Program-made: the position numbers and the translations under genes | DNA from: Sutcliffiella horikoshii DSM 8719 | GTDB lineage: Bacteria; Bacillota; Bacilli; Bacillales; Bacillaceae_I | Direction of reading: 5' to 3' | Assembly: GCA_001648575.1 (NCBI GenBank) | Contig: LQXN01000065.1 | Coordinates: 248,001 to 312,000, forward strand | DNA: 64,000 nucleotides | Shown here: positions 13,188-63,625 of the stretch, piece after piece | Layout: each line of letters opens with the position of its first letter | Numbering within the stretch: position 1 is the stretch's first letter | Notes under the pieces: model-generated | Told to the model about the DNA's origin: nothing | Databases searched by the model: none | What the model saw: the letters and a program-made list of their open reading frames with translations, nothing else

Positions 13188-16100
13188 TTAAATTCTTCCA
13201 CCTACTCCTTTAAACTTATCTACAAAGGCAGAGATTTTCTGGAAAACGCTCTGTTTTTTTGTTAAATACTGAGGATTAAGAGGACTCATTTTAGGAAGAA
13301 CTTCATTAAGCTCCGTTCCATTTTCACTGGCATATTTTCTTTTTAGTGAATTTAAAATATATCTTTTTGCAGCCTCTTCATTAAGATTTTCAGTATTAAT
13401 AAGCTCTTCTGCCTCACGTTTTTGCTCAGTTTGAGCAAATGAGAAGAAGGCATCAATAATACTTGCTTTATCTTGAATACTTTCTAAATCAGCTTGGTTG
13501 ATAAAATCAACTACTAAGCTTTCTTTTGCACGGTTTCCTATGCTAGATCGAATTAAGCGACGCACCTCTTCAACTAATGTTGCTTTATCTTTTACTTTCT
13601 TGTTATGTTCAAAAATAAGTTCAAGAATGTAATCTAAATTAACCTCTTGGGATTTTAAAAGATCTACTTCAAAGACAACATCATCCCAATCAATAGAAGT
13701 GTTTTCCTTTTCTTTTCCGTTCCTTTCACGGCGGAGCCAATCACGAATATCATTATATGAAGAACGGTAATCTTGAATAGCTCTTTCTTCTAAAACCTGA
13801 ATCTCTTGCATAACAGCAATATCTTCATCAGTAACATAGTGATTTGATTTGAAATCTTCTAAAGCTTTAGGGTCAGTAATATCTATTGCTTGCAAAGCTT
13901 TTAAACCTGAAAATTCATCATAGTTCTGAAGGATATTATCAATACGCAAATATTCACCAAAGAGTTTCGCAAACTCTTTTTTATCCTTTTCAGTAACAAT
14001 ATCATCAACATTAGGAAAACGTTCCTTTAGTTCTTTTACTACATCTAAGTATCCACGACGAGCCTCACCAGTTGCCACATCAGTGAATCCTTCTATATAC
14101 TCCTTATAGCTTTTCTCCAGCACCACATTTTTAGTGTTCTTATCTCCAAAAAGAGTAATAGCGTCTATGGTTGCTTGTTCTAAATCTCTAAAAGTAACAA
14201 TATTTCCAAAGGTTTTGGTGGAATCATAAATACGATTTGTTCTCGAAAAAGCTTGCATTAAACCATGATACCTAAGATTTTTATCAACAAATAAAGTATT
14301 TAATGTAGGTGCATCAAACCCAGTTAAAAACATTCCTACAACAATCAACAAATCAATTTCTTTGTCTTTTACTCGTTTAGCAAGGTCACGATAATAATTT
14401 TGAAATCCCATACTTTCTACGCCATAATTGGTTTTAAACATTGCGTTATAGTCTTTAATGGCTAAACTTAAAAACTCTTTTGCACTACTATCCATTACCG
14501 AAGGCTCAAAAGTTTCATCAAGAATTTCACCTATAGCATTTTGCTCTTCATTAGCAGCAAAGGAGAAGATCGTCGCAATCTTAAGGGGGTTACTGCTTCC
14601 CTGTTGTAAGTTATTTAATGATTCATAGTAGAGTTTAGCTGCGTCAACACTGCTCACAGCAAACATGGCATTAAATCCTTTTCCATTCGCATTTAAACGA
14701 TGGGTTTTTACTCTAAAATTATTCACAATATATTGGGAAATTTCTTTAATCCGTTCAGGATGTAGTAACGCTTCTCTATTTTCTGCTGCCAATAGCTTCT
14801 TCTCGTCCAGTTCTTTTTCAATCGTTTTGAACTTGGGACGTACATCGTTATAATCTACTTTGAACTTTAAAACTTTTTCATCTCTAATAGCATCCGTAAT
14901 TACATAAGAGTGTAACTCTCGCCCAAAGACAGAAGCAGTCGTTTCAGAACCTAACGCATTTTCTGGAAAAATAGGTGTACCTGTAAACCCAAATTGATAG
15001 AACTTCTTAAACTTTTTATTGATATTTTTTTGAGCTTGACCAAATTGTGAACGGTGGGCCTCATCAAAAATAAATACCACTTGCTTATTGTATATAGGTA
15101 AATCTGTTTCGCTTTTAATTAAGTTATTTAGTTTTTGAATCGTCGTTACAATAATTTTATTATCTTCTTTGTCAATGTTACGCTTTAACCCTGCGGTACT
15201 TTCTGAACCATTAACACTATCAGGGGAAAAACGCTGATACTCTTTCATCGTCTGAAAATCTAGGTCTTTCCTATCTACAACAAAAAATACTTTATCTATA
15301 AAATCCAGTTCAGTAGCTAAACGAGCTGCTTTAAAACTCGTAAGCGTTTTCCCTGAACCTGTTGTATGCCAAATATATCCACCACTTTCAGTATTTCTCC
15401 AATTTTTGGCTAGGTTTGAACTTTCAATTTTCCATAAAATCCTTTCAGTGGCGGCAATTTGATAAGGACGCATAATCAGTAGGTTATCGCTCACATCAAA
15501 AACGGAATATTTCAGTAGTACATTCAATAAAGTATTTTTCTGAAAAAATGTAGCCGTGAAATCTTTTAGGTCTTTTATCAGGGTATTATCCGATTTTGCC
15601 CAATTCATAGTAAAATCAAAACTGTTTTTATCACGTTTAGTAGTATTAGCAAAATAACGGCTATCTGTCCCATTAGAAATCACGAAAACCTGTAAGTATT
15701 TAAACAGAGAGTTTTCTGAATTAAAGCTCTCTTTACTATATCGATGAACCTGGTTAAAGGCTTCACGAATGGCAATTCCACGCTTTTTAAGCTCTACTTG
15801 TACTAAAGGTATGCCATTGACTAAAATTGTAACATCATATCTATTGGCTAGCGTTCCTTTTTGTTCAAATTGGGAAATTACTTGCACTTTATTTATAGCA
15901 ATATTCTTTTTGTCTACTAGATAGATGTTTTGAATACGCCCATCATCAAAAACAAAGTCATAAATATAATCGTTATGAATTTTACGGGTTTTATCAATTT
16001 GGCTATCACTGGGTTTATCTAAAAACTGATCACAAAATCTAATCCATTCAGTTTCTGAAAATTGTACATCATTAAGCCTTTGCAGCTGCCTACGAACATT

Positions 16101-16286
16101 TGCAAACATTTTATCAGAATTAGTTAAATTTGGTAGATGTTCATAACCTTGATTCACTAAATCTTGAATAAGTTCTCGTTCTAAATCAGCTTCTGTCTGA
16201 TAACCAGCTCCTTGCTGATCTATCTTGATATACTTATCCAAAACTATAAAGTTATTTGATTCTGCAATCGGTTTGAAATCGCACAT
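13188..16286 (-). CDS. hsdR: Type I restriction enzyme R subunit (HsdR)
   Basis: The motor and nuclease subunit of a type I restriction enzyme, 1032 residues from ATG 16286; AAGGAGG eight bases upstream fixes this start over an in-frame TTG at 16304. The nuclease core is complete: Asp152 (RYDVTIL), Glu165-x-Lys167 (VQVELKKRG) and the QxxxY motif (QVHRYS, about 179-183). The helicase shows Walker A HTTGSGKT (about 308-314), the DEAH box (about 408-411) and TGTPIF. It uses ATP to translocate DNA after HsdM/HsdS bind an unmodified site, then cuts remotely. Last gene of the hsdM-hsdS-prrC-hsdR operon; its start lies two bases after the prrC stop. Confidence 0.95.
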
Positions 16287-16288
16287 CT

Positions 16289-17395
16289 TTATGCCTCCTT
16301 CCAAAAGCTATAGTTACTTATCAAATGGTCAAGTAATAGCTTTACAGTTTGTTTTTCTTGGGGAGATGGTTCAGCTACACTTTCATTCGCTAGTGTAGAA
16401 TGACTTGTAAATTGCATAATACGATTATAATAATTCTCTTTGTTATCAGGTAATAATTCTGACCACCTTGGGAAACCAAGAAAACTCGCTGTTTTTTCAT
16501 ATAGATTTCTTAAAAGAGTGAAGTGATATTTTTGCACTTGATTATTCTTAATAGCTTCTTCCAGAATTTTCATCAAATGTAAGTGATATGAAAAACTCTT
16601 GTTAGAATCTCCATTTTTTTCTTGTAGTTCAAAAGTGCCGTCTTCTTGCCGGTCTAACATAAAACAGCCCTTTTTATTGATTTCATTATGTAGCACATTA
16701 TAAAAAATTGGATTATGCGTCGTAATAACAAACTTTAGAGCGGATTCACTTGTTTTGATCAGTTCAGCCAAGTCTACAGCCAGCTGAATCAGATGGTTAT
16801 CATCTAATGAAGTTACAGGATCATCAATAAATACATATTTCAACTGATTAAGTTTATCTGTTTCTCGTTCACCCGGCTCTGCTACATTTAATACATCAAT
16901 AACTTGTTTAAGTAAGCTATAAAACACACTCCAAATAAAGCTACTTTCCTCACCTTTTGAAATCTTTATATTTGGAGAAGGTTCTTCATTTCCTCGTTCA
17001 TAAGAAAATGTAACTTCCGAATAATCCGAATTGAATTTAGGTGTTAATGTACGATCGGTATAGTTCTGAAAATGACTAATGACATTTTGATCTTGTCCCT
17101 GTTCATTAAGCACCCATTCAGTAAAAGAGTTAGGATGAATTTTAAGCTTTAAATCAATATCATTTGCTAGATCATTGTCCCAATAGAATAGATCCTCCGT
17201 AAAAGCATTATAGTAAATGATTTTTTTGCTGGATAGTCCCGTTTCGTCCGTCTCTGTATCATTCTTAGGTGCAACCAACAATCTAAATTCTTTTGATAGT
17301 CTAGTTTTTCCATTTCCATTAAAACCATATATTAATCGAACTTTTTTATCGCAATCTATTAATTGTTGTGCAATTTCAATTAAACTCTTTCCCAT
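16289..17395 (-). CDS. prrC: PrrC-like anticodon nuclease
   Basis: 368 residues, strikingly like E. coli PrrC (about 396 residues). It has an ABC-type ATPase: Walker A GFNGNGKT (24-31), signature KISKGEES (144-151), Walker B YVFIDDP (187-193) and switch His ITTHNP (His227). The C-terminal nuclease keeps the PrrC catalytic set: Arg296 and Glu300 in [14 protein letters not shown] and His332 in [10 protein letters not shown]; spacings (4 and 32) equal those of Arg320/Glu324/His356 in E. coli PrrC. E. coli PrrC is held silent by its type Ic enzyme and, when phage T4 Stp blocks that enzyme, cleaves the tRNA-Lys anticodon loop. The gene sits between hsdS and hsdR, as in the E. coli prr locus. Target tRNA in this host is inferred only. 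Confidence 0.9.
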
Positions 17396-17396
17396 A

Positions 17397-18584
17397 CTAT
17401 GCTTCTACCTCTCTTTTCGGAAATGAAAGAAGCATATTCCCGTAATATTCATATTGTTTTTGACGCAGCTCTATTTCATGAGATAAGCCCTCACTGATAG
17501 AGAATGTCAAGGCATCAAACTTATCTAAAATAGATACTATCCGCTTTTTTTGCAAAGGTAAAGGATTTGGAATCATGATGCTATTCAAATTTTTCTGGTT
17601 TAATTTGGGTTGAGCCGCCCCGGATATATAGGGAGTTAAATCAATATGATTTAAATAAAACTCAACAAATCTTCGTTCCTCATAAGTCTCAAATTTAAGT
17701 ACATGAGCATGATTATTTACCCAAATTTTCCCCCTTGCACTAAATGCAATTGGTTTACTTCTAGCAAGTAGGTTTGCCCCATCTTCCGAAATAAGCAAAA
17801 AATCTCCTTCAAAAATATAATCTTTCACATAATCAACTATACCTGACGCCCCGTAATATGGAATATCGCCAAACGCTCTTAAACCACTGGTAATCGGTTT
17901 ACGCATTGAATCAAGATTTTCGGCAAGCTCCCTCAACGTCTTCCATTCAACTTCTCCCTCTTCAAAAGTTAACAACTTATTACGGTAATAAGTATATTGC
18001 TTTTTACGTGCTGTAAGCTCCGCTGTAAGCTCTGCTGTAAGCTCTACTGTAAGCTCTGAGAAGGAGTCTAAAATACGGATGATTTCTTCTTGCACTTTAA
18101 GAGATGGGATGGGGATTTTGAACTCTTTTACCTTCGCGTCAGAAATAGCTGGATATGCTGATCCACTTTGATTATCTTCTACATACTTTTTAAATTCAGA
18201 TGAAGTAATACAATGATAAATCCATTTAGGTAATACTTCATTTGTTCTGGCTCTTAAGATACAATAACCAGTACTAGCGACTCCTCCGGAAAATTCTGCA
18301 GTAATCAAACAAACTCGTTGCTGGGTAGGACGAGTCGTTGCAAAAATAACATCATTTTCTATTACTAATTTTTGGGCTCTGCTTGGTGCATCTGCGGCAG
18401 ATATTTCAGTTGTCTCAATTATTCTGTTTGTTTCGCGACTAACTGAAGTTAAATCAATATACCGATAAGTATCCTTTGTCTCTCTCCACTTAATATTGGA
18501 AGTTGATAATGTAACATCCCCTAATGCTTTCCACTCAACCTCAACCCCATCAAGTAGTTTCTCTATATAATTCGGCTTAATCAT
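17397..18584 (-). CDS. hsdS: Type I restriction-modification specificity subunit (HsdS)
   Basis: 395 residues with two target-recognition domains (about 12-170 and 210-370), each followed by a conserved helical spacer that docks on HsdM. The central spacer holds tandem ELTV/ELTA units (about residues 179-194) just before [13 protein letters not shown]. This is the same kind of repeat as the TAEL units of EcoR124I HsdS, where repeat number sets the distance between the two half-sites. It starts at ATG 18584, overlapping the hsdM stop by four bases (ATGA), and ends one base before prrC. Recognition sequence cannot be read from the protein. Confidence 0.95.
18010..18057 (-). repeat. Four tandem 12-bp units in hsdS (ELTA repeats)
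   Basis: Plus-strand units GCTGTAAGCTCC, GCTGTAAGCTCT, GCTGTAAGCTCT and ACTGTAAGCTCT lie end to end and encode four ELT(A/V) steps on the minus strand. The unit is a whole number of codons, so gain or loss by slippage or unequal crossing keeps the frame and lengthens or shortens the helix between the two recognition domains. Confidence 0.9.
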
Positions 18585-20128
18585 GATTCAATCACCTCAA
18601 TAAAGTCATCAATTTCAGCACGAAGTTGGTCTATCTTTGCTACAGTCGTTTTTATCTCGGCATTCAGCTCATTTATATCAATGACTTCCCTTATATCCCT
18701 TGCTTCTACATAGGAGCTCACAGATAGGTTGTAATCATTTTGAACGATTGCATCATAATCAACAGATTTTGCAACATGTTCAACAGCTTCTTTACTGTCA
18801 AACATCTTCATAATTCTCTCAATATGTTCATCTGTGAGTATATTATTATTCGTTTCTTTTTTATAAAAATCTACGCCACTTGCATCAATAAATTGAGTTT
18901 TATTATCTGTTTTATGTTTAGAAAGAACCAAGATATTAACGGCTATTGTAGTCCCATAAAAAAGGTTAGGTGCTAATGAAATAACCGTTTCGACAAAGTT
19001 ATTATCAATCAGATACTTTCTGATTTTTTGCTCTGCACCGCCACGGTAAAAAATTCCGGGGAAGCAAACGATAGCAGCACGACCTTTACTTGAAAGGTAA
19101 CTAAGTGCATGAAGTACAAAGGCAAAATCAGCTTTGGACTTTGGCGCTAATACGCCTGCCGGGGCAAATCTTTCATCATTAATAAGCGTTGGATCATCAC
19201 TACCAATCCAATTTACGGAATAAGGTGGATTAGAAACAATGGCATCAAATGGCTTTTCGTCGCCAAAGTAAGGATCTCGAAGCGTATTTCCTAAAGCAAT
19301 ACTAAACTTATCGTAGTTTATGTTGTGTAAGAACATATTCATACGAGCAAGGTTATAAGTTGTATGGTTGATCTCCTGTCCATAAAAACCATCTTCGATA
19401 ATATGAGCATCAAACTGTTTTTTTGCTTGTAATAAAAGTGATCCCGAACCGGCTGCAGGGTCATAAATTTTATTGATTGTTGTTTGCTTATGTATTGCTA
19501 ATTGAGCTATAAGTTTTGATACATGCTGAGGTGTGAAGAATTCTCCTCCAGATTTCCCTGCATTGGCAGCATAATTAGAGATTAAAAACTCATAGGCATC
19601 ACCAAAAAGGTCAATTTGATTATCTTCAAATTTACCAAAATTAAGTCCTGCTACTCCTTTAATGACAGCAGCTAAACGACTGTTTTTGTCTTTTACAGTA
19701 TTCCCAAGTCTATTACTTGTAGTGTCGAAATCAGCGAATAATCCTTTAATATCTAGTTCAGACGGATAACCACTTGCTGAACTTTCAATAGCATTAAATA
19801 TATCTGCTAAATCCGTATTCAGGTTTTCATTTGTGTTAGCGGTTTTCGCAATTCTAACAAACAGCTGACTCGGATATATGAAATACCCTTTTGTTTTAAT
19901 AGCGTCCTCTTTGATTTCTTTCGTTATAATATCATCAGACAGTTCTGCATACTTGACACTTTCGTCTCCCGCTTCAATATAACTAGAAAAGTTCTCGCTA
20001 ATGAAACGATAAAAAAGCGTTCCTAAAACATATTGTTTAAAATCCCATCCATCTACAGAGCCACGGACATCATTGGCTATTTTCCAGATTTGAGATTGTA
20101 GTAAGGCACGTTGTGCTGCACTTGACAT
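18581..20128 (-). CDS. hsdM: Type I restriction-modification methyltransferase (HsdM)
   Basis: 515 residues. The N-terminal helical domain ([20 protein letters not shown]) is followed by the N6-adenine methyltransferase core: the SAM-binding [15 protein letters not shown] near residue 221 and the catalytic SNPPYSVNW near 298. C-terminal helices ([23 protein letters not shown]) are typical of the HsdM tail. It methylates host sites together with HsdS and is required for restriction with HsdR. The start ATG 20128 has TGGAGG upstream. First gene of the four-gene operon; the next gene overlaps by four bases. Confidence 0.95.
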
Positions 20129-21000: not shown

Positions 21001-21031
21001 AAAAGTAATATTTTGTCGGTAGGTGAAAAGG

Positions 21032-22960
21032 ATGGCTGTAACGGTTCCGGAAACTATTAGGAGCAGTGCTACTTCTGGGGAGAGGATTTTGTTCCGCACT
21101 TTGAAGGAGTATTTGCCAGATGATTATATAGTGTATTTTGAACCGGAGATCCAGGGGACTAGGCCGGACTTTGTAATTATTGGTCCTGATCTGGGACTGA
21201 TTGTGCTCGAGGTAAAGGATTATACAAGAAATACGTTGTATCAGTTGAATAAGGATGAGTGGACGATTAGGGACACTGGTGGAAATCTACATAGTGTGAA
21301 GAGTCCACTTAAACAGGCAAGAGATTACGTCTTTAAGATAAATGATGTGTTGAAGAAAGATAAGAATCTGATTCAAACGGAAGGGAAGCATCAGTTTAAA
21401 TTAAAATTCCCTTATGGCTATGGCGTTGTTTTTACACGGCTAAACCAAAAGCAGGTGCTAGAGGATGGGATTTATTCTATCATTGATCCGGACAGCATGC
21501 TTACACGGGAAGAAATAGATCCGGATTATGGAGAGTTCTCAGAGGAAGTGCTTGCCGAGAAGTTAATTAATATGTTTCAAGTACCTTTTAGATTGAGAGA
21601 GCCGCTTACATATGTAGAAATTAACACGATTAGGTACTATCTATTTCCAGAGGTCCGGATTGGTGCTGAATTCAAAGAACCTGTTCCTTACCAGGACCAA
21701 TTGCTTCTATCTTTAAGGGATATCAAAACAATGGATTTCCACCAAGAGAACATGGCCAAACAAATTGGAGATAAAAATAGGCTTATTCGTGGTGTAGCAG
21801 GTAGCGGGAAGACCATTATTCTGGCAAGTAGAGCAAAGATGCTGGCGAAAGAGAATCCGAATTGGAGAATATTGATATTGTGCTATAACATATCACTCTC
21901 TCAAAATATCGCGCAAATAGTAAGAGCGATGGCGTTGGAGCCTGATAATCTATTTGACTTTCATTTTGGTGATGGAGAAATACAGATCCAGCCTACTCCT
22001 AGGAATATTGAAGTGAGAAACTTTCATCAATGGTTGAAAAATGACCTTAAGATGAGTGAAGGAATCATCGATACATATATTGAGAAGTTAGAGAAGGGAG
22101 AAGCAATTGCACCTAAATATGACGCTATCCTTATTGACGAAGGACAAGACTTTGAAGCAAGCTGGCTTCATCTCGTTAGCTTATGTCTAAACCCTGAAAC
22201 CAAAGCTCTGCTTCTCGTAGAAGACCGTGCACAAACGATTTATCCAAGAAAAAGAAGTTATCTCAAAGACACTGGCCTGGATTTCCGTGGTAGATCGAAA
22301 ATACTGAATATCAACTACCGGAATACTTCACAAATAGTCAACTGTGCTTGGGACTTTTTTCAAAAGAATTCCTCTCTGCAAAACAAGGTGGTAGTCGGCG
22401 AAACAGAAGGCGTAGAGATTATCTCTCCAAAAAGCACGAAGCGCAAAGGGCCAGAACCAGCCATCCTAAAAGCAGAAAGCTTTGCAAAAGAAATGCAGAT
22501 TATCGCTAGGCAAATACAACAGCTCCACCAAGTGCGAAAAGTTCCTTACTCTGAAATACTCATTCTATATCGTGTAAAACGAACACATAAGGCAGACATT
22601 ATCGGTACCATCCAAAGAGCACTCAATAATGAAGGTATCCCCGCAACATGGATAACAGAAAACGAAGCCAGCAAAAGAGCTTTCAATAGAGAAGAAGAAA
22701 CCGTAAAAATCAGCACAATAGACAGCAGCAAAGGGCTGGACTTCCAAGCAGTATTTATTGTGAAGGCGGATACCATGCCATTCCCGCTTGAAAAGGATAA
22801 AGAGCGGGAAGTTTCGCTGATGTATATTGGGATGACGAGAGCGAAGGAGTATTTGTGTATTTCGTATTCTGGGGAGTCGGAGTTTACTTCTTATTTTGAG
22901 GGATGGAAGAAAGAAGGGCTACTGAAAACTGGTAATAAAGTAATGAATACTCATAAGTAA
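21032..22960 (+). CDS. NERD-domain UvrD/Rep-type helicase
   Basis: 642 residues from ATG 21032 (TAGGTG upstream); an in-frame GTG at 21023 would add three residues. An N-terminal NERD nuclease-like domain (SGERILFRTL, QGTRPDFVII, LGLIVLEVKDY, about residues 12-65) is joined to a superfamily 1 helicase: Walker A RGVAGSGKT (about 250), Walker B LIDEGQDF (about 370) and the C-terminal TIDSSKGLDFQAVFIV (about 565) and YIGMTRAKEYL. NERD-helicase fusions are predicted DNA-processing enzymes, and several are parts of defence loci. It stands alone, with its own extended -10 promoter and a downstream terminator. Confidence 0.88.
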   Translation: MAVTVPETIRSSATSGERILFRTLKEYLPDDYIVYFEPEIQGTRPDFVIIGPDLGLIVLEVKDYTRNTLYQLNKDEWTIRDTGGNLHSVKSPLKQARDYVFKINDVLKKDKNLIQTEGKHQFKLKFPYGYGVVFTRLNQKQVLEDGIYSIIDPDSMLTREEIDPDYGEFSEEVLAEKLINMFQVPFRLREPLTYVEINTIRYYLFPEVRIGAEFKEPVPYQDQLLLSLRDIKTMDFHQENMAKQIGDKNRLIRGVAGSGKTIILASRAKMLAKENPNWRILILCYNISLSQNIAQIVRAMALEPDNLFDFHFGDGEIQIQPTPRNIEVRNFHQWLKNDLKMSEGIIDTYIEKLEKGEAIAPKYDAILIDEGQDFEASWLHLVSLCLNPETKALLLVEDRAQTIYPRKRSYLKDTGLDFRGRSKILNINYRNTSQIVNCAWDFFQKNSSLQNKVVVGETEGVEIISPKSTKRKGPEPAILKAESFAKEMQIIARQIQQLHQVRKVPYSEILILYRVKRTHKADIIGTIQRALNNEGIPATWITENEASKRAFNREEETVKISTIDSSKGLDFQAVFIVKADTMPFPLEKDKEREVSLMYIGMTRAKEYLCISYSGESEFTSYFEGWKKEGLLKTGNKVMNTHK

Positions 22961-23270
22961 TTAATCTCTATCCTAATACTAAATAATGCTATTAAACTCA
23001 TTTTAGTTTCAAATTAGAAAACTCTTTTTTGCACTCTTAGTAGAATAATCTTGATATATGAACAAAGTTTAAGACCACTTATTTAGCGGTCTTTCTTTTT
23101 GCTCAAAATTTATGATGTTAAGGTAGAAATTATTTAATATAACATATTTTTCAATGGATATACATGGTAAAATACTATTAAATTGTGTGTTTAAAAATAA
23201 TTCTATAGTGTTCTAATGTCCTATTTTTAAGTTTAATAACCTAAACAAGTTGTGAAGGAGACTGACAACA
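22961..23270. other. Intergenic stretch before the GHKL operon
   Basis: 310 bases. It holds the terminator at 23071-23100 and, after it, about 170 AT-rich bases that should contain the promoter of the GHKL operon; no confident -35/-10 pair was picked. Confidence 0.4.
23071..23100 (+). terminator. Rho-independent terminator
   Basis: AAGACC (23071-23076) pairs with GGTCTT (23088-23093) around an 11-base loop and is followed by TCTTTTTG. It separates the helicase gene from the GHKL operon. Confidence 0.7.
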
Positions 23271-25196
23271 ATGTCACAAATGCCTACTCAGGAAAAATGG
23301 AAGTTCTCCCCTATTCCAAATATAGAAGAATCGAATTTTAATAAATCGCTAGAACGTTTTCATGACATGGGAGTAAGTGGTTTAGTCCGAGAAAATATAC
23401 AAAATTCATTGGATGGTCGCTTATTGAATTATGATGGACCAGTTGTTTTGAAAATCGAAGTAGGAACAATTCATAAAGAGAATATTCCAGGTATTAAAGA
23501 AGTTAGAAACCGCATTCTGAAACTTGAAGGACGCAATAACTATACAAAAGAAACTATAAGTCATATGAAGAACAGGCTTGATCAAAATGAGGTTAGATAT
23601 ATTTCTTTTGAAGATATAAATACGCGAGGTTTGACAGGTGCCAGAAACGGACAAAGCGGATCGAAAAAAGATACCTGGGGGATCTATGCTTATAACAAGG
23701 GTGTTCACTTTGAGGAAGATAGTGTAGATGTAGAAGTTTCACGAGGTGGATCTCATGGGGTTGGGAAAATTGCTTCTAATGCAGCCTCAGATCTCCATGT
23801 GATGTACTTCGCCAATTGTGATGCAAACGGTGATCAACATCTGGGTGGTACTGTACAATTGATTGAGCATGTTCATAATGGCCAGGCCTACAGGTCAACA
23901 GGATACTTTACTAAGGTACAACAGGAGGAAAACGGTAACACAAAGTTCTATCCTTATGAGAACACCTTTCATAAAGTGTTTACGAAAAATACAAGAGGCT
24001 TAAAAATCGTTATTCCATATCTCCGCGAGGAATATGATGATGAAAAAGAAATAATTAAAAGTATTTGTGATAGCTTTTTCATATCCATTCTAAAAGATAA
24101 GTTGCAAGTACATGTGAATGAAAAGGAAATAAATAAAGATACGATTTTGCAGTATGTCAAAGATCAAGACTATTATAATCAAGAAATTAAAGAGGCAAAG
24201 AAAGAATTCACCCCTTTATATATAGATACATATTTGGGTATGCCCGCTAAAGAAATTACAGTATCAAATGGAGAAAAAGACTTCAGCTTTCAGCTTTACT
24301 TTAGATATGATGAAAGGATCCCAAGGGGAAGAGTAGCGGTTGTACGTACAATAGGAATGAAGATTGAAGACTTTAAAGTTACGGGTAATGCTACTAAACC
24401 CTATAATGCAGTCCTTATCGGTGGTCCTAATGAAGATGCTTATTTGAAGTCCCTAGAAAATGAATCACACACACAATTATCAAAAGATCACTTTAGTGAT
24501 AAGAAATTAAAGAGGCTAGCGACAAGATTTATTAATAATTTATCAATGGAAATTGCAAAGGTTATTAAAGAGGCAATTAATGAAAACAATCCGACAGATG
24601 GCTTGATAGATACACAAGATATCCTATATGTTGTTGAAACACAGTTTAAAAAAGATCTTGAAACCTCTATGGGAACTGTGAAAATAAATCAAGGGAAATC
24701 GTTAGTCAAGTCGACAACAAGACAATCCCAAAAAGAAAAGCGTGGGCCAAAAGAAAATACCAGCAAAGATAGCGGGAAAACCACTGCTATCCGAAAACGA
24801 GATCCTCTAAAAAAACAAAAAAGCAATGAAAATATTAATGATAATACAGAAGGAAAAGAACGGTACAGTGTACACCCGGATATGGTGGAAAGGATCATTC
24901 TCAATAATGAAGAGATGATTAAGTTTAATTTCACTAAAAGCGATCAACTTGCTGGAGAGAATGCCTGCAATATCTCGTTTTCAATTATTGATGGGATGGG
25001 TGTGGAATATTCAGATGAATTTCAGATTCAAAACAGCTATCAAGGAATTGTGGATATGAAAGCTGGAGAAACTTGCTCTTACAAAAAAAATGTTATTAAG
25101 AATGTCCAAATAAAGGACGGAATTGCTTTACTACAATTAAAATTAAGAAAATCCTTCAATCGATCATTGAAGTTTGTATATTACGTGGAGGTGTAA
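23271..25196 (+). CDS. GHKL-type ATPase, first gene of an uncharacterised three-gene operon
   Basis: 641 residues from ATG 23271 (GAAGGAGA upstream). The N-terminal third is a GHKL ATP-binding fold: N-box RENIQNSLDG (Glu41, Asn45, Asp48), G1 box SFEDINTRGLTG (Asp115, Gly120) and G2 loop SRGGSHGVGKIAS (about 157-168). A middle region (about 200-460) is unfamiliar. A Lys-rich, low-complexity linker (about 485-535) then leads to a beta-rich C-terminal domain. GHKL ATPases include Hsp90, MutL, gyrase B and Morc-type proteins, and several defence systems use one. No histidine-kinase phosphoacceptor domain is visible. The next gene begins four bases after its stop. This is likely the motor or sensor of the operon. 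Confidence 0.75.
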   Translation: MSQMPTQEKWKFSPIPNIEESNFNKSLERFHDMGVSGLVRENIQNSLDGRLLNYDGPVVLKIEVGTIHKENIPGIKEVRNRILKLEGRNNYTKETISHMKNRLDQNEVRYISFEDINTRGLTGARNGQSGSKKDTWGIYAYNKGVHFEEDSVDVEVSRGGSHGVGKIASNAASDLHVMYFANCDANGDQHLGGTVQLIEHVHNGQAYRSTGYFTKVQQEENGNTKFYPYENTFHKVFTKNTRGLKIVIPYLREEYDDEKEIIKSICDSFFISILKDKLQVHVNEKEINKDTILQYVKDQDYYNQEIKEAKKEFTPLYIDTYLGMPAKEITVSNGEKDFSFQLYFRYDERIPRGRVAVVRTIGMKIEDFKVTGNATKPYNAVLIGGPNEDAYLKSLENESHTQLSKDHFSDKKLKRLATRFINNLSMEIAKVIKEAINENNPTDGLIDTQDILYVVETQFKKDLETSMGTVKINQGKSLVKSTTRQSQKEKRGPKENTSKDSGKTTAIRKRDPLKKQKSNENINDNTEGKERYSVHPDMVERIILNNEEMIKFNFTKSDQLAGENACNISFSIIDGMGVEYSDEFQIQNSYQGIVDMKAGETCSYKKNVIKNVQIKDGIALLQLKLRKSFNRSLKFVYYVEV

Positions 25197-25199
25197 GGA

Positions 25200-26048
25200 G
25201 TGATCTATCGAAAAGATGCCAATTTTCCATATCCAGTTTTGTCTAATACTTCCCAAAGCTACGTTAATAACATCTTTGACCTAGATGTGAACGTTAGTGA
25301 AAATGCAGACTATTTTCACTTTGAATTTGATTATGAAATTGATTCAGATTTTATTAGAGAACAGATAAGGAACGGGAAAGCACAAGTAATTCTAATAATT
25401 CAATCTAAGGATAATAAATTCTTCAGATTGAATGCAATGGATAGGTCTGTGAAGCTCCACAAAAGCCGAATTTCTCTGAATAAGCGAACGTCCATCCAGT
25501 TACAAATTCAAGCCTTGGATGATGTATCTTTTGCGAGAAATGATGATTTAAGTGAATTCTATATTCAATTTAGAGACCAGGTAACGGTCCCTAAGTATTT
25601 TTTATTAGGTTATTCCAACGTCATTACATTCGATGGCAGCATTAACAAGCCATTTGAACTCTTTGAAAAGAAATTGGATGAGAACCTTAACTCAGATATT
25701 AAGGTTGAATTGGGGCAGGAGACAATAATTATCCATTATAGAAGACCGGAGTTTCAGTTTAATCACCTCCCAAAAAGCAATGTGCTAAACAACCCTTACA
25801 TATATGCAGCGCTTTCTAAAGCACTTCTGGCATTTATCATGAATAATGGTGAAGATGGTGATGTGGATTTGGATGATATTCAAGAACCAGAAAATCCTTT
25901 AGATCTAAAGTTATATTATTTGTTGAAAAAGAAGAACGTATCAGAACTAAACATGGATAATATTGATGAAGTCATATATACGATTTCGGATCGAATTATT
26001 GAGAGATATACATCAGCGTTAGGGGAGGTTATTACATATGGAGGTTAG
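25200..26048 (+). CDS. Unknown protein, second gene of the GHKL operon
   Basis: 282 residues from GTG 25200; GGAGG at 25187-25191 gives eight-base spacing. No motif or membrane segment is recognised. The first two thirds look beta-rich (FHFEFDYEID, RISLNKRTSIQLQIQ, EFYIQFRDQVTVPKYFLLGYS), and the last third is helical and acidic (NNGEDGDVDLDDIQEPENPLDLKLYYLL). The tight spacing to the GHKL gene and an 11-base overlap with the next gene indicate a translationally coupled complex partner. Function unknown. Confidence 0.6.
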   Translation: MIYRKDANFPYPVLSNTSQSYVNNIFDLDVNVSENADYFHFEFDYEIDSDFIREQIRNGKAQVILIIQSKDNKFFRLNAMDRSVKLHKSRISLNKRTSIQLQIQALDDVSFARNDDLSEFYIQFRDQVTVPKYFLLGYSNVITFDGSINKPFELFEKKLDENLNSDIKVELGQETIIIHYRRPEFQFNHLPKSNVLNNPYIYAALSKALLAFIMNNGEDGDVDLDDIQEPENPLDLKLYYLLKKKNVSELNMDNIDEVIYTISDRIIERYTSALGEVITYGG

Positions 26049-27129
26049 GCTACTGGAAAAAGGATATAAAAACTTGGACTCTTTATATCCAGATTTCCTT
26101 GAGGGGAAAGTAAAGGAAAAGGAGGAGTACTTTTCTGATAAGGTGGTCTATATTCGAGAAGCTCCTGATTTCCCAATATATATGGGCCGAGGAAATGAAG
26201 AAGAAAGAAGAAAGAGCTTTTTAAAGGCTTTCCAAACTATTTCACAGTTTTACTTAAACACTGAGAGAGATTTGCTTTTGGATGAGACTTTTTGGCACTC
26301 GTTACTTTTAACAAACAAGCAAAACTTTATCCTGACGGAGTATCCGGAAGTGGCAGAGAAAGAAAATAATTTTAGAAATGTGGTCCTTAAGAAATTTGAC
26401 TGGGAGAACTATATTTATAAAGTCATTTTAGGTGCACAATACATCAATGACAACATCACTAATCAAGAAGAGCGTCTTAAGTATTATGAATTAATTATTG
26501 AGAATTTAGATCTGTATAATTATATGATAAAATACGAGATTTTTAGAAATGATCACTTTTTAATTAATATTTTAAGAATTATTGACGAATTGAATCTATC
26601 AAAAGTTTTGAAAGCAAAAATTAAAGGTCGTGAAGATCTAGGGGATGATGAACGTGTTGGGAGACGTGTTATTTTTGAATTTAATAAAAGCTATCCAGTA
26701 ATTATGTCCCCAATGCTTGAAAAAGAAGAGCTCCAAAAGCTATTCATTGAGTACTTAAGCTATTATTATGATATTTCCGAATTATTCCCTGAAAAAGAAT
26801 ATTCCTTTAAAGAGGTAGCCGTTGATTTTGCTGAGGATGAGATGGATTACGAAGATATAAGTGCTACTAGTCACATCCTCAATACAGAGGATTTTGTTTC
26901 GGAAAATAGCGGAGTTATTTTAAAAGAAAACTTACTAGACTATTTAGATAGTCATAAATTGAAATATGTAGACCATCGTAGTAAGGGCGGATCCCTCTGG
27001 TTGTTAGGGAACAAAGAAATTGAAAGTACCTTAAAACCATTAGAAGAAGCGGGAGTGCGATTTAAATTTAAGCCAACCGGTGGAAAGGCATCAAATTATA
27101 GGCCTGCCTGGTTTTGGTATGATAAATAA
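26038..27129 (+). CDS. DUF6339-like protein, third gene of the GHKL operon
   Basis: 363 residues from ATG 26038, overlapping the previous gene by 11 bases. The body is helical; a distinct C-terminal module (about residues 300-363) reads LKYVDHRSKGGSLWLLGN, then GVRFKFKPTGG and RPAWFWYDK. The KGGSLW ... GG ... RPAWF pattern recurs at the end of other bacterial proteins and may be a nucleic-acid-binding module. The overall layout reminds me of DUF6339 proteins; this is memory rather than proof. A hairpin at 27143-27170 follows, so it closes the operon. No catalytic site is evident. Confidence 0.55.
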   Translation: MEVRLLEKGYKNLDSLYPDFLEGKVKEKEEYFSDKVVYIREAPDFPIYMGRGNEEERRKSFLKAFQTISQFYLNTERDLLLDETFWHSLLLTNKQNFILTEYPEVAEKENNFRNVVLKKFDWENYIYKVILGAQYINDNITNQEERLKYYELIIENLDLYNYMIKYEIFRNDHFLINILRIIDELNLSKVLKAKIKGREDLGDDERVGRRVIFEFNKSYPVIMSPMLEKEELQKLFIEYLSYYYDISELFPEKEYSFKEVAVDFAEDEMDYEDISATSHILNTEDFVSENSGVILKENLLDYLDSHKLKYVDHRSKGGSLWLLGNKEIESTLKPLEEAGVRFKFKPTGGKASNYRPAWFWYDK

Positions 27130-27142
27130 TTCTAATCATAAA

Positions 27143-27170
27143 AAGTCAAACTGTGATTAGTTTGGCTTTT
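27143..27170 (+). terminator. Terminator after the GHKL operon
   Basis: AAGTCAAACT pairs with AGTTTGGCTT (one G-U) around a six-base loop, ending in TTTT. A second hairpin (AAAGTCGATTCTC ... GAGAGTCGGCTTT, about 27247-27285) follows before the next gene. Confidence 0.65.
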
Positions 27171-27390
27171 AAAATGTAGAGACAGCCCACATAAATAACC
27201 ACCTTTTTTCTACTTAACCCCGAATAAACCTTAAGCTGTAAAGTCAAAGTCGATTCTCGAAAATATAAGAGAGTCGGCTTTGTTGTAATGGTATATGCTC
27301 CTTCGATCAAAAGTGTCTTTTAGCAGGGAAATGCTGGTTTTTGTCGAAGCATAAACTTAGGAGTATATAAATCAGAGGAGGACTATTCAA

Positions 27391-29958
27391 TTGCTAACAA
27401 AAATATTACTCGAACTATTAAACAAAGTTAATACCATCCACACATTAACCTCCAATCGACCAAATAAAATAGTCCGAACCGATTCTAACGGAATATATGT
27501 AGAATCCGAATCTTCCCGAAGAAAGTTTGAAAATAATGAAGCAACTGATCCTCATGCATACATCCCTTTTGAGTTCTTAACAACCGCATGGGAAGAATTT
27601 ATTCAAAGAAGAATGGTTACGGCAAATGATTTCACCAAAACTAGAGGTAGATCATCTTTTATAATGGCTTTGTTTGCACTACTTCAATATATAGAAGTAA
27701 TGAAAGAACCAGATGTAACAAAGATCAAGCTAAAAGAATTTAAAACGGATCAGCTTCCATGTGAACAATTCCATAAGGTAGTGAGATTTTTAGATCAAGT
27801 TACAGAGGGTACCTATGATCCTCCGGCTTTAAGCAAACAAGCTAAAAACGATAACGAATATAGGATTCTTTCTAGAGCTAGACAGGATTTAAGACTTCTC
27901 GGTTTGTTAAATGATGCAAATCAAATAAGTGAGAAATTTCATGCCTATGAGGCCTCGCCTAATAAACTAGCATTTATTAGAGACCTTGTACTTGAAAAAG
28001 AATATTTTCAGATAGCACTTTTTGTTCTCCAGCTCTTAGAAGCTTACCCCAAAAATGAAAAGAAAATTGCTCTTATTGAGTTAGGAATGCTAATTGTCCG
28101 CAACTCTCAAGGCGAAAACTTAATGGTGGAGTCGGTTGCTAAGGAACGAACACATAACCTATTAATGTGGCTAGAAAAACTAGAAGTAATAGATAGTAAC
28201 TGGTCACCTATAGAAGAGACTTTTTTGGAGGAAAACACAGTGAGTACTAGATTAAGAGATCAATTCTTACATATCATGAACAATTACCCACAAGCAAAAA
28301 CCCAACCTTTTGGAGGCCATGAATTAGGTTCCTTCGTTCGGAACGATGTTACAGACGAGTTAAAAAAGCTACCTTTTGTAAATGGCCAATATGTAGTAAC
28401 TGGCTCCGTTGGCCAAGGGAACTGGGCTAGTGTTCCTTGGATTGCCATAATGAATAAGAAGGTTACCATCTCCACTCAAAGAGGGTACTACATTGGATAT
28501 TTGTTTAGTGAGGATCTGCAGGAGCTCTACCTGACGTTTGCACAGGGTGTTACGGAGACGTCCAAGGAAGAAATGCTAAGAATTAAAGAGGCTATTAGAA
28601 GTGAAATTGGGATGGATGACCGGTTTCAAAAGGACGATAACATCTATCTTGGACCTTCCAAACGAGCAAGAGACTATGCTGCCTCAACTGCGGTGTATGT
28701 GAGATACAGGTTGGAGGAATTTCCTTCTGAAGACGTAATAGTAGGGGATCTTGAGAAAATGGTGAGGTACTATGAGGAGTTTATTAGTCTAAATGAAGAT
28801 GTGAACTATAAACCAATTGATCCCCCAGAGGTTGTTGCCATGCCAAAGGCTGATTATATGAGCAATCAGGCACTCGTGGAACATATTTATCAATACATAA
28901 AAAGTAAGGGATTCTTTTTTGAAAAGGAAGAAATAACAAATATTTTCCTATCTTTAAAGTCAAAGCCATTTGTCATTATTTCAGGTATTTCTGGAACAGG
29001 GAAAACAAAGATTATTGAGTGGTTTGCTGAAAGTGTAGGGGCAACGGAAGCAAATGGGCAGTTCACTTTAATTCCTGTGAGACCGGATTGGAGCGATGGC
29101 TCTGATTTAATTGGCTACAAGGATATAAAGGGTGATTTTGTGGAAGGACCATTAACGAAAGTAATCCAAAAGGCTCTCGACAATCCAACAAAGCCACACT
29201 TTGTTCTTTTAGATGAAATGAACCTTGCTCGTGTGGAGTATTACTTTAGTGATCTGCTTAGTGTGATGGAGAGTAGGAACTGGAAGGATGGGGAGATTGT
29301 TTCCTCTGAGATTTTGGACAGTTCCATGGTAGGAAGGTCTATTGCTTTTCCAGAGAACATGTACATTGTTGGAACGGTTAATATGGATGAAACAACTCAT
29401 CCTTTTAGCAAAAAGGTATTAGATCGCGCGAACACTATTGAATTTAATCGTGTGCAGCTGGATTATCTGGATTTCCTGCAAGGGACCACTGAAGCTATGG
29501 AACCGAAGTATATTGAAAATGGCATGCTTCGTGCTGACTATCTTTTTCTAAAAGACCTCGCCGCCAAGCATATGGAGTTAATAAAGAAAACCTCTTTAAC
29601 GCTAGTTGGTATAAATGAAGCACTTAAGCCACTTGGTGCACAAGTTGGGTATCGAGTACGTGATGAAATCTGCATGTACCTTGCCTATAACCAGGAAGGA
29701 AAGTTGTTTTCGCAGGAGGCCGCTTTTGATTATTGTTTAGTTCAGAAAATCTTGCCACGAATTTCTGGTAGTGACAGTAGAGTCGAACAGACTATAAAGG
29801 AATTATTTAAGCTTCTTACGAATCAAGAACTATCAGAGGATATAGAGGATTATACTGCGTACATCAAGCTTTCTAAGTACCCACGAAGCACAGAAAAGTT
29901 AGTGGAGATGTATAGGAGGTTAACGCACGATGGCTTTACCTCTTTCTGGATTAGCTAA
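27391..29958 (+). CDS. McrB-like AAA+ GTPase with MrcB_N (DUF3578) domain
   Basis: 855 residues from TTG 27391 (GGAGG nine bases upstream). Residues 1-280 are helical and unassigned. Residues about 290-400 form an MrcB_N/DUF3578 domain (YPQAKTQPFGGHELG, then GSVGQGNWASVPWIAI and STQRGYYIGYLF), thought to recognise modified DNA. The C-terminal AAA+ motor shows ISGISGTGKTKI (about 530-541), RPDWSDGSDLIGY, Walker B FVLLDEMNLARVEYYF and the McrB-type TVNMDETTHPFSKKVLDRAN. In McrBC systems the AAA+ ring hydrolyses GTP and drives the partner nuclease. The partner gene overlaps its 3' end by 29 bases. Confidence 0.9.
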   Translation: MLTKILLELLNKVNTIHTLTSNRPNKIVRTDSNGIYVESESSRRKFENNEATDPHAYIPFEFLTTAWEEFIQRRMVTANDFTKTRGRSSFIMALFALLQYIEVMKEPDVTKIKLKEFKTDQLPCEQFHKVVRFLDQVTEGTYDPPALSKQAKNDNEYRILSRARQDLRLLGLLNDANQISEKFHAYEASPNKLAFIRDLVLEKEYFQIALFVLQLLEAYPKNEKKIALIELGMLIVRNSQGENLMVESVAKERTHNLLMWLEKLEVIDSNWSPIEETFLEENTVSTRLRDQFLHIMNNYPQAKTQPFGGHELGSFVRNDVTDELKKLPFVNGQYVVTGSVGQGNWASVPWIAIMNKKVTISTQRGYYIGYLFSEDLQELYLTFAQGVTETSKEEMLRIKEAIRSEIGMDDRFQKDDNIYLGPSKRARDYAASTAVYVRYRLEEFPSEDVIVGDLEKMVRYYEEFISLNEDVNYKPIDPPEVVAMPKADYMSNQALVEHIYQYIKSKGFFFEKEEITNIFLSLKSKPFVIISGISGTGKTKIIEWFAESVGATEANGQFTLIPVRPDWSDGSDLIGYKDIKGDFVEGPLTKVIQKALDNPTKPHFVLLDEMNLARVEYYFSDLLSVMESRNWKDGEIVSSEILDSSMVGRSIAFPENMYIVGTVNMDETTHPFSKKVLDRANTIEFNRVQLDYLDFLQGTTEAMEPKYIENGMLRADYLFLKDLAAKHMELIKKTSLTLVGINEALKPLGAQVGYRVRDEICMYLAYNQEGKLFSQEAAFDYCLVQKILPRISGSDSRVEQTIKELFKLLTNQELSEDIEDYTAYIKLSKYPRSTEKLVEMYRRLTHDGFTSFWIS

Positions 29959-32377
29959 GGGTGATGTGGAACTAGTCAAAATTGAAACTGCTGACTTTTC
30001 TTTGGTGATAAAAGGGAAGCCCTATCATGAGCGTTATGTAGGATTACAGCAATATCGCAATCTTGATTTCCATGATGAAATGCAGTTCAGAGTAGTTGGA
30101 GACCATGAAGAGGTAAAGGTTTTTGATGTCGAATCGTTGGAACTGGTAGACCTGCACACCCACCGTCCGGTCTTCTTTGAAAACGGTGTGTACACGGTTA
30201 TGGTGTCTCCTAAAAACGGTAAAGAATTGACTTTTTATCATGAGCATCCAGTTTTTCGGAACGCGATTGACCGCGTGGAATTTGGACAGTCTTATGTTTT
30301 GCTAGGAAACTTACATTTTCAAAATGAAATCGGCTATTCATCTTTTGAAATTAGAGAAGGGAAACGAACGTTACTCGAGGTAACGATGGAAGTCTTCCCG
30401 ACAAAGCTCAATTATAAGGAGGACTATCGGAAGCTTTTAGATGAAGTGAACGATGAGATCTATAATCTTGCCTTTCACTTTTTAAAGAAAACGTTTCTAA
30501 GTGCGCAAACGAAATTAGAAGGCTCTCCGTCTCCTGCAGAATTTTTCCGCTTAATCACGGTTTATTTTGACGCCTTCTTAAAAGCGGTCGAGCAAATTGA
30601 GCGACAGCCACATCATAAGCTAGTCAAAACACATGAGATAGTTAGGGGAGACCGAATTAAGTCGCTCGATGCAAAAGGACGAAATTATTTGCGGAAAAAC
30701 AGTCATCTATTCCAAGAAGTAAGCCACGGCATCCCAATTGGGGACAAACAATTTATGCCGAGTAAAGGAATGACCGTCAATAAACAAATCACCTTTCATA
30801 CCCTTGAAAATCGTTTTGTGAAATGGATGATGACGCGTCTTATTAGTAAATTAGAGGACTTACTTTCTAGGTTCAGAAATAATCGCTGGAACAAGGCGGA
30901 TCAAGATCCTGAGTTAGTAAAAACCCTAGAGGGAATGAAACGATCGCTCACCAGGAAACTTAGCAACCCTTTCTGGCGAGAACTTACCTTACCAGATAGA
31001 ACCATTCAAAGTCTCGTCATGCAGCTAGCACCTGGCTACCGCGATGCCTATCAAATCTACCTAACTGTTTCCAAAGGGTTAGCCCTGCAAAACGGTATGT
31101 ACAAAATGTCAGTGAAGGATGTTGCAACTCTTTATGAGTACTGGACATATCTAAAATTAGGCCAAATCCTAAACAAGAAATACGAGATGATTAGCCAGGA
31201 CATTATCAAAGTGGACAGAAAAGGCCTGCATGTAAGTATGGAAGGTAGCCGAAAAGCAAGGCGTGTATTCAAACATCCAGTTACCAAAGAGCGCATTATC
31301 CTTACGTATCAAAAATATGAAGGCAACCTCCCAACCATTGCTCAAGTTCCAGACACCATGCTCAGCATAGAGAAAAAAGGAGAAAGTTACACATTCAACT
31401 ATGTCTTTGATGCAAAATATAGAATCGACTTTGCGCTAGAGGGTAGCTATTATGGCAAGAAGTATCACGCTCCTGGTCCAATGGAAGAAGATATTAACAC
31501 GATGCACCGTTACCGGGACTCTATAGTATCAGAGCAAAACGGCCCATACGAGAGAACCGCATTTGGCGCGTATGTCCTTTTTCCATGGAATGAAGAACAG
31601 GTCTACCAGGATCATCACTTTTATAAAAGCATTGGGAAAGTGAATATTGGAGCACTTCCTTTCTTACCGAATGCAACGGACCTTGTTGAACGGTTTATTG
31701 AGAATCTTATTGATAAGAGTCCTGAGGATATTCAAAAGGAAGGCATTTTACCAAGAGGTTCTCTGCAAAAGTGGCAAGAGAGTGTGGAGGAGAAGGTGCT
31801 GGTTGGAGTGGTATCGTCGGAGGAGCAATATACGGATGCTATAAGATCAGCCAAGTTCACGCTTGCAGCTTCTGTTTTAAGAAAAGGTTGGCAGCAGGCT
31901 CAGTATGTTGCACTCTACCTGACAAAAGAAGTGGGTATGGAAAATGGGGTAGTTTGCTATGGCAAGGTGAGTGATGTAGAGCTTTCTGCAGACTCAGTAA
32001 TATTTTCAGTTGAGCACTGGTCAAGATTAAAGAATATTATTGTGCCTGTAGGATATGGCTTTGCTCATTATATGATAACGACTTTAAGAAGTCTGGAAAA
32101 CTCCACTGAGTTACCGGAGTTGTTCATGAAGTCTGAAGAAGAAAAGGTTGTATGGCAGATGCTAAAGCGGTTGTCTGATCGAATTCATGTTGAGTTGGAT
32201 GATCAAAGGATGGATCAAGCAGAGCGGATTTCTAAGTATACAATTAAAGATGCGACGGTTAATTTTGATAAGGAAAGTGAAGTTGTGGAGATAGTGAAGG
32301 AAGGCACGGTGCAGACAGTAACTTTTGAGGAGTTTAAAAGTGACCGTGTGAAACTGTTTAGGTATCTGATAGATTGA
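29930..32377 (+). CDS. DUF2357 McrC-like nuclease partner
   Basis: 815 residues from ATG 29930, inside the 3' end of the McrB-like gene (29-base overlap, AGGAGG upstream). The N-terminal 350 residues match the DUF2357 layout (QYRNLDFHDEMQFRV, HPVFRNAIDRVEFGQSYVLL). A PD-(D/E)xK nuclease core is present at about residues 485-500 (FNYVFDAKYRID, with Asp494-Ala-Lys496). DUF2357 nucleases pair with McrB-like motors in variant McrBC (type IV) systems that attack modified DNA. The last ~200 residues are not recognised. A MazG-like gene follows 26 bases downstream. Confidence 0.85.
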   Translation: MALPLSGLAKGDVELVKIETADFSLVIKGKPYHERYVGLQQYRNLDFHDEMQFRVVGDHEEVKVFDVESLELVDLHTHRPVFFENGVYTVMVSPKNGKELTFYHEHPVFRNAIDRVEFGQSYVLLGNLHFQNEIGYSSFEIREGKRTLLEVTMEVFPTKLNYKEDYRKLLDEVNDEIYNLAFHFLKKTFLSAQTKLEGSPSPAEFFRLITVYFDAFLKAVEQIERQPHHKLVKTHEIVRGDRIKSLDAKGRNYLRKNSHLFQEVSHGIPIGDKQFMPSKGMTVNKQITFHTLENRFVKWMMTRLISKLEDLLSRFRNNRWNKADQDPELVKTLEGMKRSLTRKLSNPFWRELTLPDRTIQSLVMQLAPGYRDAYQIYLTVSKGLALQNGMYKMSVKDVATLYEYWTYLKLGQILNKKYEMISQDIIKVDRKGLHVSMEGSRKARRVFKHPVTKERIILTYQKYEGNLPTIAQVPDTMLSIEKKGESYTFNYVFDAKYRIDFALEGSYYGKKYHAPGPMEEDINTMHRYRDSIVSEQNGPYERTAFGAYVLFPWNEEQVYQDHHFYKSIGKVNIGALPFLPNATDLVERFIENLIDKSPEDIQKEGILPRGSLQKWQESVEEKVLVGVVSSEEQYTDAIRSAKFTLAASVLRKGWQQAQYVALYLTKEVGMENGVVCYGKVSDVELSADSVIFSVEHWSRLKNIIVPVGYGFAHYMITTLRSLENSTELPELFMKSEEEKVVWQMLKRLSDRIHVELDDQRMDQAERISKYTIKDATVNFDKESEVVEIVKEGTVQTVTFEEFKSDRVKLFRYLID

Positions 32378-63182: not shown

Positions 63183-63187
63183 TTTTA

Positions 63188-63625
63188 ATGGCTACATTTG
63201 GTTTTGTGAAAAATGGTAAGCATAAATTTATTAGACTACAAGAAAACGAACTGTTGGATGCGGAAGAAAGACTTGGATTTGAGTTACCTAATGAACTTAG
63301 ATGCTTTTACTTAGAAGTTGGATATGGCTTTATAAAAGGAAGCAATAATAACTCAATTAATAGATTTATGGATCCAGATACTATAGCTGATATTACTTTG
63401 AAAGAAGGTATTTACGAGTTTGATCCAGATCTAGAAGGAATATATGAGGAGGAGGATAAATTAGTGTTTTTTGAAGTGAACGAGGGTGTATTTTTAACGC
63501 TTGATTTAAATGATCCAAAACAAACTCCTGTATATTTTTTTGAAACCCAAATTGCTGGTTCATTGGAAGAATTTATTAGAAAGGTTGATGAGGATGCAGA
63601 GTACTTTATAGATATGTCTGAATAA
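63188..63625 (+). CDS. SMI1/KNR4-family immunity protein
   Basis: 145 residues from ATG 63188, AAGGAGG overlapping the toxin stop. Core features of the SMI1/KNR4 superfamily: LQENELLDAEERLGFELP (entry helix), LRCFYLEVGYGFI, and SLEEFIRKVDEDAEYF at the end. Such proteins protect against linked nuclease toxins. Translationally coupled to the toxin gene and similarly AT-rich. Confidence 0.85.
   Translation: MATFGFVKNGKHKFIRLQENELLDAEERLGFELPNELRCFYLEVGYGFIKGSNNNSINRFMDPDTIADITLKEGIYEFDPDLEGIYEEEDKLVFFEVNEGVFLTLDLNDPKQTPVYFFETQIAGSLEEFIRKVDEDAEYFIDMSE

Follow-up and report, generated by a model that had tools for sequence, protein, structure and literature searches.

What kind of system is formed by three closely packed genes, headed by one for a GHKL-type ATPase, that lie among restriction genes in Sutcliffiella horikoshii DSM 8719? 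The genes, here called A, B and C, are found in a stretch of 64,000 nucleotides of contig LQXN01000065.1 (assembly GCA_001648575.1, positions 248,001 to 312,000), and this whole stretch is referred to as the window. By sequence comparison, the trio is a divergent member of an already listed candidate family, PDC-M33 of PADLOC-DB 2.0.0 (2023), where PDC stands for phage defence candidate: the M33A model matches A at 8.7e-54, and the M33B model matches B at 5.4e-12. A sequence-only reading of the locus had been unable to match the set to a named one and had taken it for an undescribed defence complex; the GHKL ATPase, the co-occurrence of the three genes and the restriction context have stood, whereas the word undescribed has not. 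Judging by this context and the catalogue listing, it is very likely that the trio acts in defence, and on balance it probably does so as a stand-alone complex built around an ATPase of the paraMORC2 type.

The three GHKL boxes that had been read in A are the N, G1 and G2 ATP-binding boxes of the Bergerat fold, and their key residues do not vary among 78 full-length A proteins, that of the window included (L062, L085 and L102, being split or short, were excluded); the fuller N-box pattern ExxQNSxD[AG] is found in 70 of the 78. The AlphaFold2 model of A, with a mean predicted local distance difference test score (pLDDT) of 83.8, aligns at residues 15-445 with Hsp90, MORC3, topoisomerase VI-B and MutL (VIA-align), the S5 region falls within this segment, and by model and motifs A carries the GHKL fold and the S5 (transducer) fold that MORC, MutL, topoisomerase VI-B and Hsp90 have. 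The pLDDT falls below 50 at residues 443-456, 463-508 and 519-527, and strands are predicted from residue 531 onward. ParaMORC2 had been predicted in 2008 as an ATPase type that combines GHKL and S5 and has an ExxxH motif strongly conserved in the C-terminal part of S5 (PMC2292703). A is of this type by its modelled fold and its ExxxH motif, the placement being made against the published description. The RxxGM of A recurs, like ExxxH, in the ATPases of the MZA-like operons L041-L043. An identity as MORC sensu stricto was considered and rejected, as the S5 motif GhXhhpXXRhl occurs in none of the 78 proteins at residues 200-470.

B and C are the constant partners of A, co-inherited in one order with touching or overlapping genes. 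Co-occurrence in other genomes, which the sequence-only reading had named as a point to check, is the rule: the analysis retained the 80 best of 335 relatives from GTDB genomes, and in 78 of these loci A, B and C follow one another on the same strand (L062, with A split into two open reading frames, and L078 and L084, with a short C, are counted here), and chance adjacency is excluded. Two loci, L085:467-1636 and L102:7941-8612, hold only a truncated A, with B and C not found by profile, and are decayed copies of the system. A DUF6339 gene of 200 amino acids at L199:7556-8158, with A and B not found in the 18 kb fetched, is the single exception to the pairing. In the window, the coupling of the genes had been described correctly for the 11-base overlap of B and C, but the gap between A and B is 3 bases (25197-25199) and not four. 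The 11-base overlap is also the commonest B-C spacing, seen in 36 of the 78 fetched loci with a complete trio when the most upstream start codon of each open reading frame is used, a choice on which the other spacings depend, and its frequency fits translational coupling. By eye, a Shine-Dalgarno-like stretch precedes each of the three genes. The placement of the trio between terminators is borne out only in part: a terminator scan listed the upstream palindrome among 5 terminator-like sites versus 2.5 +/- 1.7 in shuffles, and the hairpin after C was recognised by eye and is absent from that list. 'Bacillus horikoshii' FJAT-14233 has a near-identical copy of the operon on one of its contigs (L045), and the genes are under purifying selection, with synonymous divergence (dS) of 1.0-1.2 and non-synonymous divergence (dN) of 0.09-0.11 versus L048; in the comparisons with L046 and L047, synonymous change is at or near saturation.

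The relation of B and C to the canonical M33 proteins had to be established by profiles. B has no match in Pfam and, in NCBIfam, only weak ones far under the cut-offs; a comparison of window-type and canonical B profiles gave 98.7% with 3.2e-16, and in sequence the two types are clearly homologous. Canonical C corresponds to Pfam DUF6339 (7e-51 to 3e-54 in three relatives), whereas C of the window reaches 0.021 and that of the relative L040 8.6e-4, both under the cut-off, and none of the four PADLOC M33C models matches the window's C. Profiles of 56 window-type and 27 canonical C rows gave 60-67% with E 8.6e-5 and 5.3e-5, above all 120 controls. The AlphaFold model of C (pLDDT 86.9) has a helical core.

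The KGGSLW ... RPAWF module that had been noticed is located at the C-terminus of C, where the PADLOC ZorC C-terminus matches residues 285-343 at 6.4e-6, and it is predicted as an alpha+beta unit after a low-confidence linker. It is an optional tail and not part of the core, since only 7 of 56 window-type C proteins have it (a count that includes the window as well as its near-copy L045 and excludes the short L078 and L084). All seven belong to one nine-member clade of A, of which L073 and L101 have no tail, and across 250 class genomes the tail occurs in six besides that of the window, one of these being weak. C may thus offer a slot for swappable tails, as expected for a targeting module, which is suggested by a canonical C whose terminal domain is another one, by eye GreA-like (L204:6258-7349). 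The same tail module stands behind DUF4145 domains (Pfam) in L156 and L160, both of which match PDC-M16A; none of the Pfam matches listed for these two covers the KGG...PAW module, and L157-L159 resemble them by eye.

Table 1. Features of the trio, its flanks and the MZA-like operons (coordinates in the window unless a locus is named)
Feature	Position	Strand	Remark
NERD + UvrD-type helicase gene	21023..22960	+	NERD 3.2e-11, UvrD_C 3.8e-25; PADLOC C3a187 (NERD+UvrD) 1.6e-110
Terminator-like palindrome upstream of A, after the NERD-UvrD gene	23071..23093		listed by scan on minus strand; plus-strand T-run by eye
Gene A, 641 amino acids, ATG start	23271..25196	+	GHKL/S5 ATPase, paraMORC2 type by model, PDC-M33A
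N-box ENIQNSLD, E41-D48	23391..23414	+	E41, Q44, N45, D48 invariant in 78/78
G1-type box DINTRGL, D115-L121	23613..23633	+	D115, G120, L121 invariant in 78/78
G2 box GGSHGVGK, G159-K166	23745..23768	+	G159, G160, G163, G165, K166 invariant in 78/78
RTIGM, R359-M363	24345..24359	+	RxxGM of S5/transducer region; invariant in 78/78
ENESH, E396-H400	24456..24470	+	ExxxH motif; E396, H400 invariant in 78/78
Linker, residues ~443-537	24597..24881	+	mostly low confidence, from ATPase module to C-terminal beta-rich domain (AlphaFold2 model)
Gene B, 282 amino acids, GTG start	25200..26048	+	PDC-M33B family, no known domain
Gene C, 363 amino acids, ATG start	26038..27129	+	probable distant DUF6339 (PDC-M33C) relative, helical core and ZorC-like tail
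C-terminal module of C, residues 296-363	26923..27126	+	alpha+beta; ZorC C-terminus match; optional
Terminator-like hairpin after C	27143..27168	+	by eye; absent from scan list
McrBC-like pair	27391..32377	+	MrcB_N-AAA_5 27391-29958; DUF2357-PDDEXK_7 29930-32377
MZA-like operon	L041:3513-12265		large helicase gene, paraMORC2 ATPase, ~320 amino acid protein, DUF6339-like protein, nuclease, C5 methylase-like gene
MZA-like operons	L042, L043, L200:7024-13604		putative large helicase gene, ATPase, ~320 amino acid protein, DUF6339-like protein; scan of the extra genes covered the L041 helicase and nuclease

The flanking NERD-helicase and McrBC-like system of the sequence-only reading are borne out by domain matches on both sides of the trio, and the company is similar elsewhere. 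Out of 147 listed nearest neighbouring proteins of at least 100 amino acids, the 122 at L046-L111 were scanned, with L112-L124 excluded, and these contain GmrSD_N (14), ResIII (10), NERD (5), PLDc_2 (5), C5 methylase (4) and AIPR (3) domains by Pfam. None of these families is among the matches listed (best 25 of 170 families) for 120 control genes, taken at arbitrary coordinates in 11 genomes that have an A or M33A match and are distinct from the L046-L111 records, which leaves at most one each possible. The restriction context is an enrichment and not a constant: restriction-type genes are frequent beside the trio, and there is no constant fourth gene in the loci compared for gene order. By eye, the window further contains Type I restriction genes (HsdR-, HsdS- and HsdM-like) on the minus strand at 13188-20128, with an AAA-like gene of 368 amino acids between HsdR and HsdS, a short remnant like the N-terminus of a McrC-type protein at 1548-1913, and, at 61296-63625, a gene for an LXG-like polymorphic toxin whose C-terminus is HNH-like, with an SMI1/KNR4-like immunity gene after it.

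As to the mechanism, the fold shared with MORC, MutL, topoisomerase VI-B and Hsp90 lets ATP-gated dimerisation be expected of A, which by this analogy would bind ATP, dimerise and close as a clamp. It is rather probable that A clamps DNA, and given the genomic company of the trio, the substrate is most likely foreign DNA. B and C would probably be bound to A, B serving as an adaptor and C acting as a loader or effector, and the optional tail of C, ZorC-like in the window, would probably help to determine recognition. As no nuclease is recognised in the system of the window, several outcomes have to be considered: ATP-driven trapping or compaction of the invading DNA, cutting by B or C through a cryptic activity, or cutting by a recruited nuclease. 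The most far-reaching version, a nuclease-free bacterial MORC whose ATP-driven clamp is loaded and targeted by the subunits B and C and silences invading DNA by trapping or compaction, appears improbable.

Several results weigh against a stand-alone paraMORC2 complex that clamps DNA. Pfam does not detect the ATPase domain in A, profile comparison connects A weakly with MutL and not above control level with HtpG, and the best fold matches of A are to Hsp90, a protein chaperone, which is why its DNA substrate is inferred from context. The link between the two C types came only with the larger alignments, an earlier attempt with 7 rows each having failed (0.5%). The window-type B and C profiles have no direct match to B and C of the MZA-like operons. 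Helicase_C and DEAD domains occur in 8 and 8 of the 122 neighbours versus 3 and 2 of the 120 controls. Finally, Foldseek found no match below E 0.001 for the core of C, which makes a hidden enzyme in B or C possible, and a single DxK (D235, K237) is kept in window-type B.

These last points lead to the alternative that survives best, namely that C, with its DUF6339 core, or else B is a cryptic nuclease or toxic enzyme that is restrained by the ATPase and released on infection, with DNA cutting or abortive infection as the result. It shares the ATPase part with the stand-alone paraMORC2 reading, differs in the effector step and can be likened to GHKL-type Shedu. Nucleases accompany the MORC and paraMORC ATPases of restriction systems (PMC2292703), VcSduA is a GHKL domain fused to a nuclease (PMC12137116), and C combines many invariant polar residues with a helical core that has no close solved relative. 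However, Pfam and NCBIfam recognise neither a nuclease nor any other catalytic domain in the window's B and C, neither C type has a [DE]xK pair at 90% conservation, and canonical B does not share the DxK that window-type B keeps. A cryptic enzyme is a serious possibility with somewhat less than an even chance.

It is more doubtful that the trio is an accessory module serving an adjacent restriction system, be it McrBC-like, GmrSD or Type I. GmrSD, ResIII or NERD genes do often adjoin the trio, and the MZA-like operon L041 contains it beside genes for a helicase and a nuclease of NgoFVII type, with which it presumably works together, but no single partner dominates, as even the most frequent Pfam family, GmrSD_N, reaches no more than 14 of the 122 nearest neighbours. 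An operon for DNA repair or chromosome maintenance that plays no part in defence is very improbable, for although the ATPase module is common to MutL and topoisomerase VI, the spread is patchy (among the 16 genomes of the genus, 4 have close A copies; M33A matches in 16 of 398 class genomes, three of them MZA-like and one spurious), plasmids carry A (in 21 records, a count that covers A only), the complete trio is found on 2 IMG/VR contigs, one of which has it beside recombinase-like genes, two of the fetched loci hold a truncated copy, and restriction genes often lie next to the trio. Two further genera, each with one genome, hold distant A copies, which brings the count to 6 of 18 genomes. 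On the IMG/VR contig with recombinase-like genes (L191:2921-9468), the trio comes shortly after two recombinase-like genes recognised by eye, and this may be a mobile carrier.

If the trio protects alone, it would separate a paraMORC2 ATPase core from nucleases, and cutting versus silencing would become directly testable. Eukaryotic MORCs have been proposed to be acquired from a bacterial source (PMC2292703), and with such an origin the answer bears on the start of MORC silencing. DUF6339 and the KGG/ZorC-type tail module would likewise gain their first working frame. The family itself was already catalogued as PDC-M33, and what is added here is structural support for the ATPase type, the paraMORC2 placement, the strictness of the trio and the sign of a core shared with MZA-like operons. 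No literature was found that names PDC-M33 or DUF6339 or tests protection, with a test under another name remaining possible.

Among the known systems, VcSduA, a Shedu protein with a GHKL N-terminal domain, is an anti-phage GHKL ATPase as A may be, but it has a DUF4263 nuclease domain within the same protein (PMC12137116), which A by Pfam does not. GHKL-type Shedu was rejected as an identity of the trio, as Pfam matches DUF4263 in none of A, B and C. The Zorya protein ZorC is resembled by about the last 60 residues of C, and C as a full-length ZorC was rejected, the match being restricted to model positions 503-561 of 570. Among the matches listed for the six proteins of 21023-32377 (for the NERD-helicase the best 25 of 44) there is none to ZorA, ZorB or MzaC, and none to any Zorya model for the five proteins other than C. 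The paraMORC2 ATPases of restriction-modification operons share GHKL and S5 with ExxxH with A, but are described together with superfamily II helicases, nucleases and methylases (PMC2292703), none of which is a fixed partner of the trio. PDC-M33 has the gene families (for C, probably) and order of the window trio, and its canonical relatives match M33A in L028 and M33B and M33C in 3 of 3 scanned; it differs in that a separate clade (support 1.0) unites canonical A, which has 21-23% identity to window-type A, and in that C of the window escapes the M33C models and bears the ZorC-like tail. The MZA-like operons, finally, keep the same order, with the ATPase (RxxGM and ExxxH present, as checked in L041-L043) followed by genes for 314-322 and 226-242 amino acids, the latter DUF6339-like in L041 and L042, and L041 has in addition a MzaC-type helicase and an NgoFVII-type nuclease, both matched in scans, and, by eye, C5 methylase-like genes. 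Sequence comparison indicates clear homology to the window for A, fair homology for C and weak homology for B, the latter two by way of canonical M33, which is a sign that the same-order trio is the core of MZA-like restriction operons, present in the window without the cutting parts. Should the nuclease-free MORC turn out to be true after all, the nuclease-bearing MZA-like systems would be a silencing core to which cutting machinery has been added.

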